From NCBI GenBank assembly GCA_026645815.1, contig JAPKMR010000003.1, positions 62,001-126,000 on the forward strand: a stretch of DNA of 64,000 nt. The letters are read 5' to 3'. The number at the start of each line of letters is the position of its first letter. The stretch's first letter is position 1. Source of the DNA: Anaerolineae bacterium (GTDB taxonomy: Bacteria; Chloroflexota; Anaerolineae; B4-G1; SLSP01). This document shows, piece by piece, positions 1 to 8,850 of this stretch. Both the position numbers and the translations under genes were made by a program. The notes under the pieces were generated by a model. The model made no database searches. It had not been told where the DNA came from and saw only the letters and a list, made by a program, of their open reading frames with translations.

Positions 1-289
1 ACAAGTAGCCATAGACGCAAATCTGTGCTATACTATCTTAGTGAGACTCAAACCATTTCCCACTGTGGAAATGGGCTTCGGAAATTGTTGGATGCGCCCA
101 ACGACTTTATCCGGATTCGAATGACTCTCCACACCCGTAGATGAAATAGACAACGACAGGACTTCTTATCATAAATTGTGGGATAGTCTTCATAGCAAGG
201 TGCCAAAGCAGGAGGTGCATCGCGCAACAGATAAGTTCAACACACCTGATCCTATAGTTGTCCTAATCCATCAAATAAGGAGTGCAACC

Positions 290-382
290 ATGTACGAGAC
301 CCCGATGATCGTTTTCGAAGGCGAGCTGGAAGTCCATGCTGGCAGCCCTGTCCAACTGGATGTGTTGCCTGGGCTCGAGTAA
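290..382 (+). CDS. 30-aa peptide MYETPMIVFEGELEVHAGSPVQLDVLPGLE, candidate RiPP (lasso-like) precursor
   Basis: ATG at 290 is preceded by AAGGAG with about 8-nt spacing; YxxP-x-I-x3-G leader-like motif; sits inside the longer 176..382 ORF in the same frame. Confidence 0.55.
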   Translation: MYETPMIVFEGELEVHAGSPVQLDVLPGLE

Positions 383-442: not shown

Positions 443-475
443 AGAAGGGGGGAGAGACGCTCTTTCCCCCCTTCT
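443..475. terminator. Strong hairpin between peptide gene and sigma factor gene
   Basis: AGAAGGGGGG (443-452) pairs with CCCCCCTTCT (466-475); no clear T-run follows. Confidence 0.55.
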
Positions 476-541: not shown

Positions 542-1111
542 ATGACGGATAAGATGCTTCAGCCCCTAAGTGACGTCGTACTCCTACAATGCATTAGCGA
601 AGGCAAAGAAGCAGCTTTCGAAGAGCTCTATCAGCGGTATAACCTGCCGGTGTTCAACTATCTCGTGCGCCTGACCCACGACAACGGTGTGGCCGAAGAA
701 CTGTTGCAAGATGTGTTCTTGATCATCTGGCAAGATGCAGGTTCATTTCGCGGTCATGCCAGCGTCAAAACATGGCTTTTCCGTATTGCGCACCATCGTG
801 CAGTCTCTTGGCTACGCCAACGTCCCGGAAACATCCAGGGAGATTTTGAGGATGTGGGCATCACCGACATCGCAACCGATCCTGAAGGAAAAGTCATCGA
901 AGCCTGGACGGTCAAACAAATTCGAGCGGCGCTTGATAGCCTCTCAAACAAGCACCGTGCTGTATTGGAACTGGCTTTTTTTTATGACTTACCCTATACG
1001 GAGATTGCGCAAGTCATTCAATGTCCAATAGGCACGGTAAAAAGCCGTGTCAGCTATGCACGGCGCTGTTTGCTCCAGTATCTGAAGAAACATGGGTTGA
1101 GCGAGCTCTAG
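542..1111 (+). CDS. RNA polymerase sigma factor, ECF/sigma-70 family
   Basis: FEELYQRYNLPVFNYLVRLTHD...AEELLQDVFLIIW (region 2) and YTEIAQVIQCPIGTVKSRVSYARR (region 4). Confidence 0.93.
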   Translation: MTDKMLQPLSDVVLLQCISEGKEAAFEELYQRYNLPVFNYLVRLTHDNGVAEELLQDVFLIIWQDAGSFRGHASVKTWLFRIAHHRAVSWLRQRPGNIQGDFEDVGITDIATDPEGKVIEAWTVKQIRAALDSLSNKHRAVLELAFFYDLPYTEIAQVIQCPIGTVKSRVSYARRCLLQYLKKHGLSEL

Positions 1112-1117
1112 GGAGAG

Positions 1118-1816
1118 ATGATTATGAGAGACCGATTCAGGTCCAGTATCAAAAAACTGGAATCCTACCTGCCCTGGTACGTCAACCGCACCCTCACTGC
1201 TGCTGCAAACCAAAAGGTGACGCAAGGCTTACAAGAAAACCCAGAGCTGGGCCATTCGTTACAGGAATGGGAAACAGTGCAGAGCCTGGTGAAAAAGCAA
1301 CCACTCCAGCAGCCCTCACCGGCAGTTCAGGAACGCTTGATGGCCCGCGTGCGCGCCTGCAATTTACCCCAGCGGAACATCATACCACTCTGGTTTAGCC
1401 GCGCCTGGGGCATAACGCTTGCAATCACGGCATTGTTGTTTTTGTGGGTGATGTTGCAGCCTGGCGTCCAGTTGCAGTGGAGCGTAAACCAGGCTCAGAT
1501 TGCCGCCTTCAACATCTACCGAGCGCCAGCAGGCAGTGTGGATTTTGCCCTGCTTTACGCAGCCACTGATCCCCCCAGAGCCAGGGAATACCGCTTTGTG
1601 GATACCGCCCTATGGAATGGGCGTGCGCATAGCTATCGCATCGTCGCGCTGGGTGCAGAGGGACAAGCGCTTTTCAGCAATGAGGTCATGACCGGAGCAC
1701 ACACAGCTCTTCCAGGCCAACTGGCGGTCATACTGACCAGCATCATCATTGGCTATGGTGCGGTAATGCTTATTGAGAATTGGCCCACTCCACCTCGCCG
1801 CTTTCAAATCTGTTGA
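1118..1816 (+). CDS. Anti-sigma-like membrane protein with fibronectin-like ectodomain
   Basis: N-terminal LPWYVNRTL...LQEWETV typical of anti-sigma cytoplasmic domains; TM near residue 90; IYRAP...YRFVDTAL...YRIVAL extracellular repeat; second TM; directly follows sigma gene with GGGAGAG RBS. Confidence 0.65.
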   Translation: MIMRDRFRSSIKKLESYLPWYVNRTLTAAANQKVTQGLQENPELGHSLQEWETVQSLVKKQPLQQPSPAVQERLMARVRACNLPQRNIIPLWFSRAWGITLAITALLFLWVMLQPGVQLQWSVNQAQIAAFNIYRAPAGSVDFALLYAATDPPRAREYRFVDTALWNGRAHSYRIVALGAEGQALFSNEVMTGAHTALPGQLAVILTSIIIGYGAVMLIENWPTPPRRFQIC

Positions 1817-1829
1817 GGAGCACATCGGC

Positions 1830-2333
1830 ATGAGGTGGAAAGCGCTTTTAGGGTTTGGCCTTGCGATATTCGTGATCTGTATTGCCTCAGAAAGCGCCAG
1901 CGCCTATGTTCGCTACAATCCCCAGGGTCCAGACCGCCTGCTCTTTCCCGGCTATCAATGGACCGTTTTGGCCGACACCACCACTGAAGAGCTGATCTGC
2001 ATGCGCTGGATAATTGCTCAAAACCCCACCTGGCATTACGCACACTGTCAGAGGGCCGAAGCGCCAGTAGATGCGTGGGTCTGTACCATCGCGGACGATA
2101 TTCCCGACGCCGAAGTGACTTACCAATTCTACAAAGCCTCCGCAGTAAGCGCCTGCGATCTTAACGGCAATACCTCGGAGTGGACTTCCCCTCATACTTT
2201 TGATACTGTTGTTGATTCAATCACCCTGAATAAACCCAATCTACAGACACCCTGTCTGCGTGCCAGTCTGATGGGCTTACTCTGGGTTATCTGTGGCGCC
2301 ATCGCTATCGGTTGGCGCCATCATCAACGCTGA
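1830..2333 (+). CDS. Small secreted/membrane protein with N-terminal signal and C-terminal TM, unknown function
   Basis: ATG at 1830 with upstream GAGGAG; MRWKALLGFGLAIFVICIASESASA signal peptide; C-terminal hydrophobic segment LMGLLWVICGAIAIGW. Confidence 0.6.
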   Translation: MRWKALLGFGLAIFVICIASESASAYVRYNPQGPDRLLFPGYQWTVLADTTTEELICMRWIIAQNPTWHYAHCQRAEAPVDAWVCTIADDIPDAEVTYQFYKASAVSACDLNGNTSEWTSPHTFDTVVDSITLNKPNLQTPCLRASLMGLLWVICGAIAIGWRHHQR

Positions 2334-2530: not shown

Positions 2531-2653
2531 CATACTACTTTTGCGGGTAAACACACTGTTGCCCGTGGTATATAAATGGGAAAACGCAACCCAACCAGCG
2601 ATGTGAAGCGGGGCAACCCCTTCAGAGATGGTGATGATAAATGCTTGAGGGTA

Positions 2654-5215
2654 ATGATGAACAAGAAAATTGCTTTTCGTTTGAGCGTGGTTTTGGCGCT
2701 CGTCGCAGTCGGACTCTTGTCAGTTTTGAGCATGGACCTCCCCACACAAGCCACTTTCATCCAGCAACCTGCTGCTCAAACAGCCACTCACGATCCAGTA
2801 CAAGATCCGCCAGATGATTTCTTTGCCCCTTCTCCCGCCGCAGATGCCCAGGCACCGGCAGAACCTGCTACGACCGCCACAATGCTACCGCTTACCTCGG
2901 CCACAACACCCTGGGCACTGCCAGACCCTGTATGGCGAGTCGGCATCACGCAGGATGGACTCTATCACCTGTCTTATGAAACCCTCGCCGCTGCTGGTGT
3001 GCCTGTCACCGAAGCCCTGATGACGAATTTTCAGCTCTGGTATCGGGGGATTGAAGTCGCCATCGAGATTGATGACAGCAACGAAAACGGGCTTTTCGAT
3101 CCAAACGAGGGCCTGATTTTCTATGGCGAGAAGTTTCACGGCAGCACGCAGGATGAGAAATACACAGATGAAAACGTCTATTGGTTGAGCCTGGAACCCA
3201 GCGCTACCGGCAAGCGTATGACATCACGCTCCGTGCTCCCGACTGGCGCTCCGGCAACCGGTATTTGTGTCGCCACGACAGTTGCAGAACAGAATCTGGA
3301 ACATTTTGCGCGCTGGAACAACAACCCCGGCACATCCACTACCTGGTTCTGGAAGCGCATGATTGCGCCACTGGGACAGGTCGTCACCAACACCTTCCCA
3401 ATCCCCTTGAGTAACATCGCCATGACGCCACACACTGCCACACTGCTCATCGAAGTTGCAGGAAGAAGCTACAACGTCTCCGTCAACCCTGATCACCACC
3501 TCAGAGTAACCTTCAACGGCACACTGCTCGGTGATGTTTTCTGGGACGGCGAGGTGGGGTACGTCGTCACACTCGATGTTCCCGGAACGCTTCTGCAAGA
3601 AGGGGATAACACGCTAAGCCTGGCATTAGTCGGGACAGATCTATATCAGGATATCTACTTCGATCGCGCCGAGCTCACGTATCTACGGGAGCCTGTGGCC
3701 ATAGAGGGTGTCCTCACCTGCGAGGTTTCTGAAACCGGCACGCACACTTATACCTTCGCCGGAATGCCCACTCAATCACGGCTCTACGATATCACCGATC
3801 CACTGAATCCGATAAAGCTCACAGATCACCAGGCTTTTACCTTCCAGGATACTGCTGATGCCGGAACACAGTATATCGGCGGCGTGCCATCAGGGGGAAC
3901 CGCAGCCTTCACCATCTACCTGCCGCTGGTGTTACGCAATAGCAGCAACACGGTGCAAAGCGCAACAACCCTACTCTCAGACAATACTTCGACCAACGCG
4001 ACTTTGCCAGCAATGACGATCACGGAGTATCACCCAGATACCAGCCTAATCACCCCCACAAACGGAGCCGATTTGCTCATCATCGCGCCGCATGAGTTCC
4101 ATACGGCACTGCAACCCCTAATCACGCGCCGCCAGACTCAGGGGCTGCGTGTAACCCTGGTAGCAGAGCAGGACATTTATCCGCTCTTCAACGGCGGCAT
4201 CTATCACCCTGAAGCCATTCGCGCCTTCGTCGCCCATACTTATGCAAGCTGGCCCACGCCAGCACCCAAATACCTGCTCCTGGTAGGTGATGGGCACTTC
4301 AACTTCAAGGGTTACGACCCGGAAACTTTCGGCGAACCTTCACGGATTTGGATTCCGCCCTACCTGGAATTCGCCGATCCAGATCAGGGTGAGGTGCCGG
4401 TGGATTCCCGCTTCGGTGACACAAACGGGGATGGCTTACCCGAACTCATGGTGGGCCGTATTCCTGCGAATTCCGAAACTGAACTCACGGGGTATCTCAA
4501 CAAACTGCTGGCATACGATATGCTACCCGCATCCGCATGGATGGAGACGCTATTGCTGGTCGCCGATGACGGCGCCACCACCCAGGAGCCTTATTTTGCC
4601 AGCGGTCTGAATTGGATCAGAGATAACCTGTTCCCCACCTGGGCGGTGAGCAAACAGGTGTACATGCAGGACTACTGCCCCAAACCACCCGCGAGCTGGA
4701 CCGCACCTTGTCCCGCAGCCACGATGGCATTGACTCAGACCTGGAGCCAGGGCGCGGCGCTATTATTCTATGCCGGACATGGAGCGCCTGGTGTGTGGGC
4801 GAACGAACCGCTGGTGCGTGGCTCACAGCTGGCGACGCTCCAGCCGGCTGCGGGGCAACCATTTATCATTGCGCTAGATTGCTGGGATGGTTTCTGGATG
4901 TTCCCCCATAACGTCAACGTGGGTGCGGGACGCGAAGCCATCTCCATCGGCGAACGCGCGACCATGGGGTGGGACGATCGTGGTGCCATCGCCGTCTTCG
5001 GACCCGCAGGTCTGGGATATATGACCGTGGAAGAGCAATTGGCGCGTGCGATGATGCAAGAAGCTTTCGAGCGCGGAGAACGTCGCGTGGGAGAGCTGAC
5101 GCAAGCAGGCAGGGCAGCCATCTGGAATCTAGGTTCAGGAAAATACCTTGCCCGCACCTACACCCTTCTGGGTGATCCTTCCATGCAATTGCGCCTCCAA
5201 GATATCACCCAATAA
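2654..5215 (+). CDS. Secreted peptidase C25 (gingipain/PorU-like) protein
   Basis: ORF 2576..5215, likely start at MMNKKIAFRLSVV; DGLYHLSYETLAAAGVP prodomain-like; PKYLLLVGDGHFNFKGYDP; FYAGHGAPG (His) and IALDCWDGF (Cys). Confidence 0.85.
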   Translation: MMNKKIAFRLSVVLALVAVGLLSVLSMDLPTQATFIQQPAAQTATHDPVQDPPDDFFAPSPAADAQAPAEPATTATMLPLTSATTPWALPDPVWRVGITQDGLYHLSYETLAAAGVPVTEALMTNFQLWYRGIEVAIEIDDSNENGLFDPNEGLIFYGEKFHGSTQDEKYTDENVYWLSLEPSATGKRMTSRSVLPTGAPATGICVATTVAEQNLEHFARWNNNPGTSTTWFWKRMIAPLGQVVTNTFPIPLSNIAMTPHTATLLIEVAGRSYNVSVNPDHHLRVTFNGTLLGDVFWDGEVGYVVTLDVPGTLLQEGDNTLSLALVGTDLYQDIYFDRAELTYLREPVAIEGVLTCEVSETGTHTYTFAGMPTQSRLYDITDPLNPIKLTDHQAFTFQDTADAGTQYIGGVPSGGTAAFTIYLPLVLRNSSNTVQSATTLLSDNTSTNATLPAMTITEYHPDTSLITPTNGADLLIIAPHEFHTALQPLITRRQTQGLRVTLVAEQDIYPLFNGGIYHPEAIRAFVAHTYASWPTPAPKYLLLVGDGHFNFKGYDPETFGEPSRIWIPPYLEFADPDQGEVPVDSRFGDTNGDGLPELMVGRIPANSETELTGYLNKLLAYDMLPASAWMETLLLVADDGATTQEPYFASGLNWIRDNLFPTWAVSKQVYMQDYCPKPPASWTAPCPAATMALTQTWSQGAALLFYAGHGAPGVWANEPLVRGSQLATLQPAAGQPFIIALDCWDGFWMFPHNVNVGAGREAISIGERATMGWDDRGAIAVFGPAGLGYMTVEEQLARAMMQEAFERGERRVGELTQAGRAAIWNLGSGKYLARTYTLLGDPSMQLRLQDITQ

Positions 5216-5293: not shown

Positions 5294-6826
5294 TTGGTAA
5301 CGCAATTTGCGGATCAATGGCCCGAGTTACTGGCTGAAACGGCGACAAATGCCTATCGCCTACATGTGCGTGGGCGAAGTATGTGGCCCACGCTGCAACC
5401 CGGAGACGAGCTTCATGTCGTAAAGATCGAAGCGCAAGCGCTGCGCCCCGGCGATTGGGTTGTCATCCGCGCCCCATCAGGCCCTCTGGTTCACCGCTTT
5501 CTGAAGTTCACACGCGATGGGGGATTGCTCACCAAAGGAGATGCGCATCGCGCGCCGGATCCACGTTGGCCCCAAGAAGCGTTATTGGGACGCGTCACTG
5601 CAGTTGTTCGGCATGGCAACACCATGCCTGTACGCACGAATTCCTTCAGGGAAAGGATGAAAACTATGTTTCACCGAATTATAGCCGGCATCTGGCAACA
5701 ACGGCGCTCGCGCCGGCACATCGCAACACACCTCTTGCTTTTAGTAGTTTTATGGCTCAGTCTGGCATCACAACCCCTGTTAGCAGCGGTGACGCTCGCG
5801 GACTTTGGGGCGATAGCCCAGACCGCCGACATCAAAGTGTACTGGGAGACTGCCAGCGAAGTCAATATGTCGGTCTTCTATGTGTTGCGCGCCCCGAGCG
5901 AGACGGGAACCTATAATCGCATCTCCAACTTCATACCGGCGGAAGGTGACCTTGGCGGAGCCATCTATGAATACGTTGACGAGGATGTTGAAGCCGGTAC
6001 GACTTACTACTACAAACTAGAGGCAGTTGAAACTAATGGGTCCTCCGAATTTCACGGGCCTGTTTCAGCGCGCATTCCACTGCCGGGAGAAAACAATACC
6101 CCCACGCCCAGTCCTACTCCGACCCTCACACCAACACCAACTCCCACTACCCCACCCCCGACAACGCAACCCGGTCAACCCACAGCGACACCCGAACCTT
6201 ACGTGCGCTTCTGGACCGATCAAACCACCGTGCAAGCGGGACAGTGCGTCACCCTGCAATGGGAAACACGCGAAATCAGCGCGGCCTTTCTGGATGGATT
6301 AGGCGTTCCAGGAGTCAGCGCAAAAACCGTCTGCCCCTGTGAAGGTCAGACTTATACGCTGCGCGTTACGTATCGGAATGGGAGCAACGAAGACTTCACG
6401 GTCGCGCTCGCCGTGCAGGGCGTATGCACACCGGCGCCTCCCGGCAGCACAGCGACGCCAACCTTCCCGCCACCCGCAACCCTCACGCCGGGCCCGAATG
6501 AGACGACGCCGCCCACTGTGGAGAATGTCCCCCCCACGCCCACTCCGACATTGCAATCCCAAGCGCCCACCCTCGCTCCTGCGCCGCAAATCGAGCCAAC
6601 GACCTCCACCGGAGGCGAGGGAATGACCCCTGAACCCCTCACCATGGCGCCAGAAACAGGACCGACCGCAGCAACGATAACGACACCCACGCTGATACGC
6701 CCGGCGCTCGGAGGACAGGATGCGCCAACATCGTCATCAGGTTGGCTGTGGGGAGGTATCGGCGCCGGTGGGCTGCTAATCCTTCTAGGAGGAGCAGGAA
6801 TCTGGTGGATGCGAAAACGCTCATGA
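5294..6826 (+). CDS. Fusion: S26-type signal peptidase-like domain + fibronectin-like/Pro-Thr-rich surface protein with C-terminal TM
   Basis: GRSMWPTLQPGD, GDWVVI, VHRFLKF, LTKGDAHRAPD (S26 boxes); then LLLLVVLWLSLASQPLLA; VYWETASEVNMSVFYVLRAP; TPTP-rich linkers; C-term GGIGAGGLLILLGGAGIWWMRKRS. Confidence 0.75.
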   Translation: MVTQFADQWPELLAETATNAYRLHVRGRSMWPTLQPGDELHVVKIEAQALRPGDWVVIRAPSGPLVHRFLKFTRDGGLLTKGDAHRAPDPRWPQEALLGRVTAVVRHGNTMPVRTNSFRERMKTMFHRIIAGIWQQRRSRRHIATHLLLLVVLWLSLASQPLLAAVTLADFGAIAQTADIKVYWETASEVNMSVFYVLRAPSETGTYNRISNFIPAEGDLGGAIYEYVDEDVEAGTTYYYKLEAVETNGSSEFHGPVSARIPLPGENNTPTPSPTPTLTPTPTPTTPPPTTQPGQPTATPEPYVRFWTDQTTVQAGQCVTLQWETREISAAFLDGLGVPGVSAKTVCPCEGQTYTLRVTYRNGSNEDFTVALAVQGVCTPAPPGSTATPTFPPPATLTPGPNETTPPTVENVPPTPTPTLQSQAPTLAPAPQIEPTTSTGGEGMTPEPLTMAPETGPTAATITTPTLIRPALGGQDAPTSSSGWLWGGIGAGGLLILLGGAGIWWMRKRS

Positions 6827-8850
6827 AACACCTGAATCTGCTATCACTCCTGGCGCTATTATGGCTCATTCCGACATGCAACCGTAACGCCGTTCCAACT
6901 CCCATCGCAGGTGATTTCGTGCCGGGAGAACACCAGGCTTTTTTCATTGATGTCGCTGAAGAGGGTGGTGTTTGGCTGGCACCGGATACACTGAATGCAC
7001 TTGGGGTAGATGTAAACGCGGCTGACGCGCCAGCACTGCGGCTTTCCTGGAACGGACAGACCGTGCCAACGCGCAGCGTCGAAGATGAAGGAAAATGGGG
7101 GCTTTTCTTCTTTGCGCCCGCTTTCCACACGCGCTACACTCAGGAAACCAGTTTCTTGCTAGAACTCGACGCCACAGATACCCCGATTCCCACACAGACG
7201 CCGGCGGAGGCGACGATGCCTGCTCTTCCGGGGTTGACGCAAGTCACCTGGGAAGAAGACCGGCGCTATTTTCCCCAGGCTACTGCGGAAATTCCGTGGC
7301 TATGGCAACCCATCTATGCGCCCGGAGAGATTGCCCACACGCTCAGCCTCACCAACGCGGTAGCAGGTCCCATGACTGTGACCGTGCGCTTGTGGAGCCA
7401 CACTCGCTTCACGCCGACGCCGGACCACCGGTTGCAGCTCTATTGGGATGAAGAGCTCAAAGGGCAATGGGAATGGGCAGGGCAGGGCATGCAGACCCTG
7501 ACTGCAAGCTGGGATGAAGCCACGCCCCAGGGTAATCATACACTTACCCTGAACACACCTGCTGTCAGCGAGAGCGGCATAGCCATCGTCTGGATTGATG
7601 GATGGGATATCACCTATCCTCATGCCTCTGTACCCCCAAACGGATTGTTACAGGCGCAGGGCGCTACACTCAGCGCCGGAGAAGAGGGGTTGATGGTCCT
7701 CGATGTCACCGAAGGGCTTGCACCTGTTCATCTGGGGAAGACTGCTCCGGATGGGAATATCGGTGTGGAACCAGGGCATCGCTATTGGATCGGCAATTTT
7801 GAGGCAGCAACCACACCCGTGAGGGTGCGCCCCCCTCTGAGCCTGGATGTAGCTTCACTGGCGGATACAACTTATCTGGTGATTGCCCCAACTGCCGCCC
7901 ACGAAACCCTGGAGCCTTTGCTGGCACACCGGCGGGCAGAAGGGCTGGTGACCGCCATGGTCACGCCACAGGCAATATACGATACCTTTGGCGCAGGGCG
8001 TGCCGAACCGGCAGCCATCAACGCCCTCGTGCAAAGCTTGCCAGCATTGCGCTACTTGTTGCTCGCCGGCGATGCCGTCGCCGACCCGGCAGGCTACGAT
8101 ACTGAAGGTCAGCAATTGCGCGTGGTTGCTCCCTTCACCCGCACAGCGGTGCTCGGCGAGACTCCAGCCGATGGGCGCTACAGTGTCAATGCTGAGGGTT
8201 TTCCCACCGTTGCCGTGGGACGCTTCCCTGCCGAGACGGTCGCGGGGATCAAAGCCCTGGTCGAAAAGACCTTACTCTGGGAGACCACGGAGGAGACCCC
8301 AACGGTGGTCTTGGTCACCGATAATGAGCTCCGTTTTAGCGACATGCTGGATGCAATCATACCGCTGATCTCGGGCGGGGAGGACGCTGAGCGCATAGAT
8401 TCCGGCGAAGAGCGTAGCCGCGAGCGGTTGCTGGAAGCCCTCAATCGCGGACCAACGTGGTTCAATTACACCGGACATGGCAGTCTCACCCGGCTCTGCG
8501 ATGAGGAGATTCTGACCATCAATGACGGAGAGAACTGGAAGCAGCCTTCAGTTGTGGTTGCCTGGACCTGCCTCGCCGGGCATTTTGCACATCCGACGCA
8601 GGCCTCTATCGCAGAAGCCTGGATGCAAACCGCCGGTGGTGGCGCAGTAGCATTCCTGGGCCCGGTAGGAGAAACGACCACCTTCGAGCAGCGTCCTGCA
8701 GCCCAGGCTTTCTATGCGGCGTTGCCGCAACAACGCCGCATCGGTGACGCCTGGCTCAAAGCCATCCAAACCGAGACCGGCGCGCCTGATGTGCGCTGGG
8801 GTTTCCTTGTTCTGGGGGATCCCGCACTAGATGTCAAACCAGGACCTTGA
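6823..8850 (+). CDS. Peptidase C25-like protein, possible lipoprotein
   Basis: Start overlaps previous stop as ATGA (6823-6826); LLALLWLIPTC; LRYLLLAGDAVADPAGYD; FNYTGHGSLTRL (His), VVAWTCLAGHF (Cys). Confidence 0.8.
   Translation: MKHLNLLSLLALLWLIPTCNRNAVPTPIAGDFVPGEHQAFFIDVAEEGGVWLAPDTLNALGVDVNAADAPALRLSWNGQTVPTRSVEDEGKWGLFFFAPAFHTRYTQETSFLLELDATDTPIPTQTPAEATMPALPGLTQVTWEEDRRYFPQATAEIPWLWQPIYAPGEIAHTLSLTNAVAGPMTVTVRLWSHTRFTPTPDHRLQLYWDEELKGQWEWAGQGMQTLTASWDEATPQGNHTLTLNTPAVSESGIAIVWIDGWDITYPHASVPPNGLLQAQGATLSAGEEGLMVLDVTEGLAPVHLGKTAPDGNIGVEPGHRYWIGNFEAATTPVRVRPPLSLDVASLADTTYLVIAPTAAHETLEPLLAHRRAEGLVTAMVTPQAIYDTFGAGRAEPAAINALVQSLPALRYLLLAGDAVADPAGYDTEGQQLRVVAPFTRTAVLGETPADGRYSVNAEGFPTVAVGRFPAETVAGIKALVEKTLLWETTEETPTVVLVTDNELRFSDMLDAIIPLISGGEDAERIDSGEERSRERLLEALNRGPTWFNYTGHGSLTRLCDEEILTINDGENWKQPSVVVAWTCLAGHFAHPTQASIAEAWMQTAGGGAVAFLGPVGETTTFEQRPAAQAFYAALPQQRRIGDAWLKAIQTETGAPDVRWGFLVLGDPALDVKPGP

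Follow-up and report, generated by a model that had tools for sequence, protein, structure and literature searches.

Linear polyphosphorylated peptides (LPPs) have been described from the lpp cluster of Paenibacillus alginolyticus (Popov et al., 2026; PMC13381572). Their precursors carry the leader YxxPxVLxHQxIxFET, with the tyrosine at position -16 and cleavage after Thr(-1), and the machinery comprises the RRE protein LppB, the HprK-like kinase LppK, which acts on Ser3 of the core, and the SpI-like peptidase LppS (S29/H68/D93). The clusters also encode an NTP transferase and an MsbA-like exporter, and contain no macrolactam cyclase. The specificity residues of LppB are Asn33/Asp70, and the Trp-type RRE of paeninodin has Gly42/Gln79 (PMC13381572). 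LPPs were stated by the authors to be restricted to Bacillota (PMC13381572). Among the phosphorylated lasso peptides (paeninodin, Bsf), the kinase BsfK phosphorylates Ser3 aided by its RRE and carries the motif H..GxSGSGK(S/T)..DD (PMC10368454).

The window analyzed here is a stretch of 64,000 nucleotides (contig C161, positions 62001-126000) from an Anaerolineae genome (G000; 4.94 Mb, 227 contigs, 92% complete, 6% contaminated), a draft assembly whose quality limits the weight of any absence. An ORF that starts with the ATG at 290 and ends with the TAA at 380-382 encodes MYETPMIVFEGELEVHAGSPVQLDVLPGLE, exactly as quoted in the earlier note, and the well-spaced ribosome binding site proposed there was confirmed, with a spacer of 7 nt. 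The ORF is a real gene, beyond a chance reading frame. A six-frame search for the 30-mer in relatives, a check that the earlier note had suggested, found homologues within the genus (97% and 80% identity) and in several other families of the class, with E-values from 3e-14 (same genus, 97% identity) to approximately 1e-5 (other families). A GGAG-type site lies upstream of 35 of the 37 distinct homologues. Conservation at the DNA level rather than in frame, also considered in the earlier note, does not fit the pattern of substitutions, as synonymous changes dominate: compared with G002 there are 8 synonymous and 1 non-synonymous codon changes, and third positions account for 7 of the 9 base changes. 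Compared with G004, of the same genus, 12 synonymous and 6 non-synonymous changes were counted, the latter nearly all in the last ten codons; in the aligned sequences the leader protein is almost the same and the last ten codons have diverged. Scans of the 30-mer against Pfam and NCBIfam gave no match.

At least 35 homologues could be aligned, and profile matches to the precursor occur in 41 of 199 genomes of the class (Chloroflexota). The leader follows the consensus YxxPxI(V/I)(Y/F)E(G/A)xLE(V/I)xA, after which the core starts with G(S/T)P. In the alignment Tyr2, Pro5, Glu10, Ala17, Gly18, and Pro20 are invariant, Leu13, Glu14, and Ser19 are near-invariant, and the distance from Tyr to Gly is 16 residues in 35/35. 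A hydroxyl residue always occupies core position 2 (Ser in 32 sequences, Thr in 2, and Tyr in 1), and the C-terminal parts vary freely in length and sequence. An Asp or Glu is present at core positions 7-9 in 23/35 and absent there in 12/35, which leaves the latter without a possible 7-9 ring. Since a fixed leader combined with a variable core is the pattern of RiPP precursors, we read the 30-mer as such a precursor, with a leader M1-A17 containing the motif YETPMIV, a predicted cleavage site at A17/G18, the core GSPVQLDVLPGLE, and a predicted phosphosite at Ser19. A RiPP precursor with a YxxP leader had been proposed in the earlier note, and this stands on the in-frame conservation, the leader/core pattern, and the PqqD-type RRE and kinase genes directly upstream; its placing of the core start at Gly18 is supported too, as signal-peptidase-like cleavage is predicted just there.

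Searching GTDB genomes with the leader DNA pattern yielded 38 stretches, mostly from Chloroflexota/Anaerolineae, and the exceptions look like chance. The match in Saccharopolyspora looks like the C-terminal end of an unrelated, longer protein and was regarded as fortuitous; the other matches outside Chloroflexota had no precursor-like ORF. No publication on this precursor family in Chloroflexota came up in literature searches; it is apparently a large family of this phylum that had not been described so far.

The precursor had been considered an orphan. This could not be upheld, because the PqqD-family gene ends 121 bp before the start of the window, 410 bp before the ATG of the precursor, and is preceded by the gene for an HprK-like kinase; the pair begins approximately 1.2 kb left of the window (Table 1). 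Inspection of the 20 kb to the left (L031), as the earlier note had advised, revealed an RRE, one of the genes that it had named, together with the kinase; no asparagine-synthetase-like cyclase was recognized among the ORFs of the cassette. The family of such cyclases, PF00733, is also a housekeeping family. Single-sequence phmmer searches of the RRE, the kinase, and the S26 protein against the PDB were weak, and a profile was therefore used for the RRE and fold searches for the other two. A whole-genome search located the RRE domain at C161:61667-61867, and PqqD domains occur in 20/20 peptide-bearing genomes. Lasso B1 models come closest to the RRE (NF033530, 2e-10, below cut-off); the RRE profile matches TbiB1 from a lasso system at 1e-12 and LppB (9x8z) at 3e-7, a score below that of TbiB1. 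Asn37 and Asp74, 37 residues apart, are invariant in 12 RREs. The kinase has kept the motif H..GxSGSGK(S/T)..DD, and its AlphaFold2 model (pLDDT 90.2) has PEP carboxykinase (2e-7) and HPr kinase (1e-5) as top Foldseek matches; its matches to HprK models are below curated cut-offs. From motif and predicted fold, the kinase looks functional. A transposase-like gene (L031:16621-18114) lies immediately left of the FN3/TM gene and is possibly the cause of the separation of cassette and NTP transferase.

Table 1. Features of the precursor locus; positions refer to the window unless a flank (L031) or contig (C161) is given.
Feature	Position	Strand	Basis
FN3/TM protein	L031:18362-18835 (left of window)		
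HprK-like P-loop protein (kinase)	L031:18832-19620 = C161:60832-61620 (left of window)		
PqqD-family protein (RRE)	L031:19604-19879 = C161:61604-61879 (left of window)		
Shine-Dalgarno sequence AAGGAG	277..282	+	read off sequence
Precursor peptide, 30 aa	290..382	+	in-frame conservation, 35-member alignment
Strong hairpin without T-run, attenuator- or stabilizer-like	~443..475	+	folding z-score -5.2 for 383-541
ECF sigma factor	542..1111	+	PF04542 3e-14, PF08281 6e-13
Anti-sigma factor-like membrane protein, FN3-like outer part	1118..1816	+	NF052375 2e-6 (below cut-off), predicted TM segments
Secreted/membrane protein, 167 aa from ATG	1830..2333	+	conserved with cassette in L032, L034; beside another precursor in L042
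C25 cysteine peptidase, PorU-/gingipain-like, predicted secreted	2576..5215	+	PF01364 5e-66; PorU NF033707 2e-55 (below cut-off)
Archaeal-type signal-peptidase-like (S26) protein, predicted leader peptidase	5294..6826	+	TIGR02228 4e-9 (below cut-off)
Second C25 peptidase	6742..8850	+	PF01364 4e-53

To the right, the precursor is followed by a hairpin, which probably determines how much precursor mRNA is present relative to the mRNA further downstream. Hairpins occupy the corresponding place in G002, G004, G005, and G010, with unrelated sequence in the last three. In G002, G004, and G005, too, the ECF sigma factor gene is the next one after the precursor. The first C25 peptidase contains His735/Cys769. 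The S26-type peptidase, which the earlier reading of the window had missed, consists of an N-terminal S26 domain, a TM segment, an FN3-like domain, and a C-terminal TM segment. Its Ser29/His67/Asp89 are invariant in four homologues, and Foldseek matched it with modest scores to SipA, SEC11, and LexA-type serine peptidases; on this triad and the predicted fold, it looks like a functional enzyme. According to the positive-inside rule, the positively charged flank of a TM segment is on the cytoplasmic side. As the TM segment after the S26 domain is flanked by RRSRRH, the domain would reside in the cytoplasm together with the unmodified precursor. An FN3-like outer segment (WxTASEVD..F.LYR) recurs in similar form in three different proteins of the cassette (1118-1816, 5294-6826, and L031:18362-18835), which may point to an extracellular partner that they have in common.

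Gene order is the same in G002, and the arrangement is the same in G004 and G005 as far as their contigs extend. The order precursor - C25 - S26 - (RRE) - C25 is found in many families (L035, L043, L047, L130-L133, L135, L136, L139, and others), and in some relatives the kinase and RRE genes come before the precursor. In G055 (L047) the series reads NTP transferase (NTP_transf_5), FN3/TM protein, kinase, RRE, two secreted proteins, precursor, C25, S26, and C25. The kinase/RRE pair is on another contig than the precursor in G009, G010, G012, G013, G020, and G022; in several of these it comes after a Wzz-like gene, and in G022 Wzy and NTP_transf_5 are also present, making this a surface-polysaccharide locus. 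An MsbA-like exporter is beside the peptide in G079 only (L093; PF00664, PF00005). Neither this exporter nor an NTP transferase is adjacent in the genome under study, which has five matches to the latter elsewhere; with matches in 145 of the 199 class genomes, NTP_transf_5 is too common to discriminate.

Presence of the precursor tracks the kinase and the S26 peptidase, rather than lasso B2. Among the 199 genomes, with 58 profile matches for the kinase and 64 for S26, the kinase is found in 34 of the 41 precursor genomes (p=4e-16) and S26 in 35 of 41 (p=2e-15). Shared ancestry inflates these p-values, but the contrast with PF13471 (B2) holds in the same sample: it occurs in 47/199 genomes without association (9/41 with and 38/158 without the precursor, p=0.84), and it is absent from all 20 of the peptide-bearing genomes that were tested for it. 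The spacing between precursor and kinase is 0.5-2.9 kb in 12 genomes, and that between precursor and S26 2.6-5.7 kb in 17.

The locus resembles LPP clusters in its YxxP leader with Tyr at -16 and variable core (35/35), in a discrete Tyr-type RRE with Asn37/Asp74 spaced like Asn33/Asp70 of LppB, in an HprK-like kinase (by motif, fold, and co-occurrence), in an archaeal-type SpI-like leader protease with Ser/His/Asp (Ser29/His67/Asp89 compared to S29/H68/D93 of LppS), in needing no lasso cyclase, and, in relatives, in nearby NTP transferase and polysaccharide (Wzz/Wzy) genes. The full consensus YxxPxVLxHQxIxFETxxS is not found in the leader, as HQ and FET are absent and agreement is limited to Y, P, and the hydrophobic spacing (-11, -10, -5, -3); the leader body is EGELEVxA instead of HQxIxFET. 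Gapless alignment places Ile at -11, Leu at -5, Val/Ile at -3, and Ala at -1, so that a classical signal-peptidase -3/-1 site stands at the LPP cleavage position. Further differences are the predicted cleavage residue (Ala instead of Thr(-1)), the predicted phosphosite (core Ser2 instead of Ser3), a shorter and acidic core, two C25 peptidases flanking the S26 gene, fusion of S26 to membrane and FN3-like parts, and the non-adjacent exporter. Since the leader lacks the HQxIxFET body and this locus has neither an exporter nor an NTP transferase gene beside it, we call the system LPP-like and not strict LPP; its RRE is likened to LppB by profile and residues. What is new is the phylum, Chloroflexota instead of Bacillota, and the conserved order of precursor, C25, S26, (RRE), and C25. 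The SynChlorMet cassette (NCBIfam ScmC/ScmD) likewise has HprK-like and PqqD-like proteins, to which ours match weakly and far below cut-off, but there they accompany paired radical SAM enzymes, of which this cassette has none.

Taken together, the gene at 290-382 is probably the precursor of an LPP-like RiPP that is linear, phosphorylated on the serine of the GSP motif, and cut after Ala(-1). The conservation of the precursor, the genes beside it with the folds or active-site residues of their products, and the co-occurrence are the observations from which we infer the following steps, including export and whatever part C25 plays. The PqqD-type RRE would bind the YETPMI leader, the HprK/PEPCK-fold kinase would phosphorylate Ser19, the hydroxyl residue in the second position of the core, and the S26 domain would cut after Ala17 (V-x-A/G); the linear phosphopeptide may then be exported and meet the secreted C25 peptidases encoded alongside. 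Against this LPP-like assignment stand the differences in leader, phosphosite, and neighboring genes listed above, the S26 and HprK model matches below curated cut-offs, and the fact that some copies in relatives adjoin a radical-SAM enzyme (L038, L048, L137, L138, L143) or no recognized machinery.

Among known systems, the C25 peptidases are closest to PorU and the gingipains of type IX secretion: both match PF01364 strongly, and the first matches PorU partially. The papers found do not describe C25 genes linked with a cassette of RRE, kinase, and precursor. The first being PorU-like and predicted to be secreted, and the kinase/RRE pair having a polysaccharide context in relatives, a role at the cell surface is suggested. 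A specific form of this, in which the phosphopeptide (maybe with a nucleotide, sugar, or polysaccharide) is a substrate or acceptor of the adjacent PorU-like C25 in a cell-surface system and not a secreted natural product, is speculative and on balance unlikely. If true, RiPP chemistry would feed a surface protein-attachment or processing pathway.

It is less probable still that the 30-mer acts unmodified as a small regulatory or structural peptide, for example a sigma/anti-sigma partner or a C25 inhibitor, with the RRE as a mere chaperone. In many families a C25 gene comes immediately after the precursor, and sigma/anti-sigma genes are adjacent in its own genus and in G005; however, these lie outside the wider cassette, the kinase that accompanies the peptide across genomes has its active-site motif intact, and the invariant Ala/Gly junction, the small hydrophobic residue at -3, and the hydroxyl at the second core position are consistent with processing and phosphorylation.

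Modification mainly by a radical-SAM/SPASM enzyme is very improbable. In two relatives the peptide is directly upstream of a QhpD/PapB-like radical-SAM gene (L038:6501-9121, L048:8664-11121), in L137, L138, and L143 such genes are beside variant precursors, and the genome under study has radical-SAM genes on other contigs. However, there is none in the cassette or the syntenic loci of G002, G004, and G005, the core has no Cys, and in L038 and L048 the enzyme is followed by a Cys-rich Tat-signal protein that could be its true substrate. The variant precursors in L137, L138, and L143 have Cys in the core (with WxEP instead of YxxP in L138 and L143) and neighbor kinase and C25 genes as well; they are a possible hybrid branch. 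Elsewhere in the genome under study, a second RiPP-like cluster (about 8000-13400 of L089, which is C170:14001-29217) combines a pair of radical-SAM/SPASM enzymes and a pair of small PqqD-like proteins with an S26-like peptidase, an ECF sigma factor, and an HprK-like protein, and is SynChlorMet-like with an added signal-peptidase-like protein.

The lasso peptide of the earlier note, with a Gly1-Asp7 macrolactam closed by B2/C enzymes encoded elsewhere, is hardly credible: the YxxPx(L/I) leader with Gly1, the nearness of the RRE to B1 models, and the acidic residues at core 7-9 in part of the family agree with it, but there is no Thr(-2), and as B2 is missing, Asp7 is replaced in G004 (GSPIGPLTLPGLE), and 12 of the 35 cores have no acidic residue at 7-9, the macrolactam is not a family feature. 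Phosphorylated lasso peptides (PMC10368454) likewise have a YxxPxL leader, a discrete B1/RRE, an HprK-like peptide kinase, and a nucleotidyltransferase; the present family differs from them in showing no association with B2 (PF13471), no conserved ring acceptor, and no Thr/Ile(-2).

For the LPP-like reading, the gene logic reported in 2026 as confined to Bacillota would now extend to many families of Chloroflexota, adding dozens of natural variants of leader, RRE, and peptidase. The connection with gingipain/PorU-like peptidases, and with loci for surface polysaccharides in relatives, offers a lead to the role of the phosphopeptides, which may be tested in small synthetic operons.
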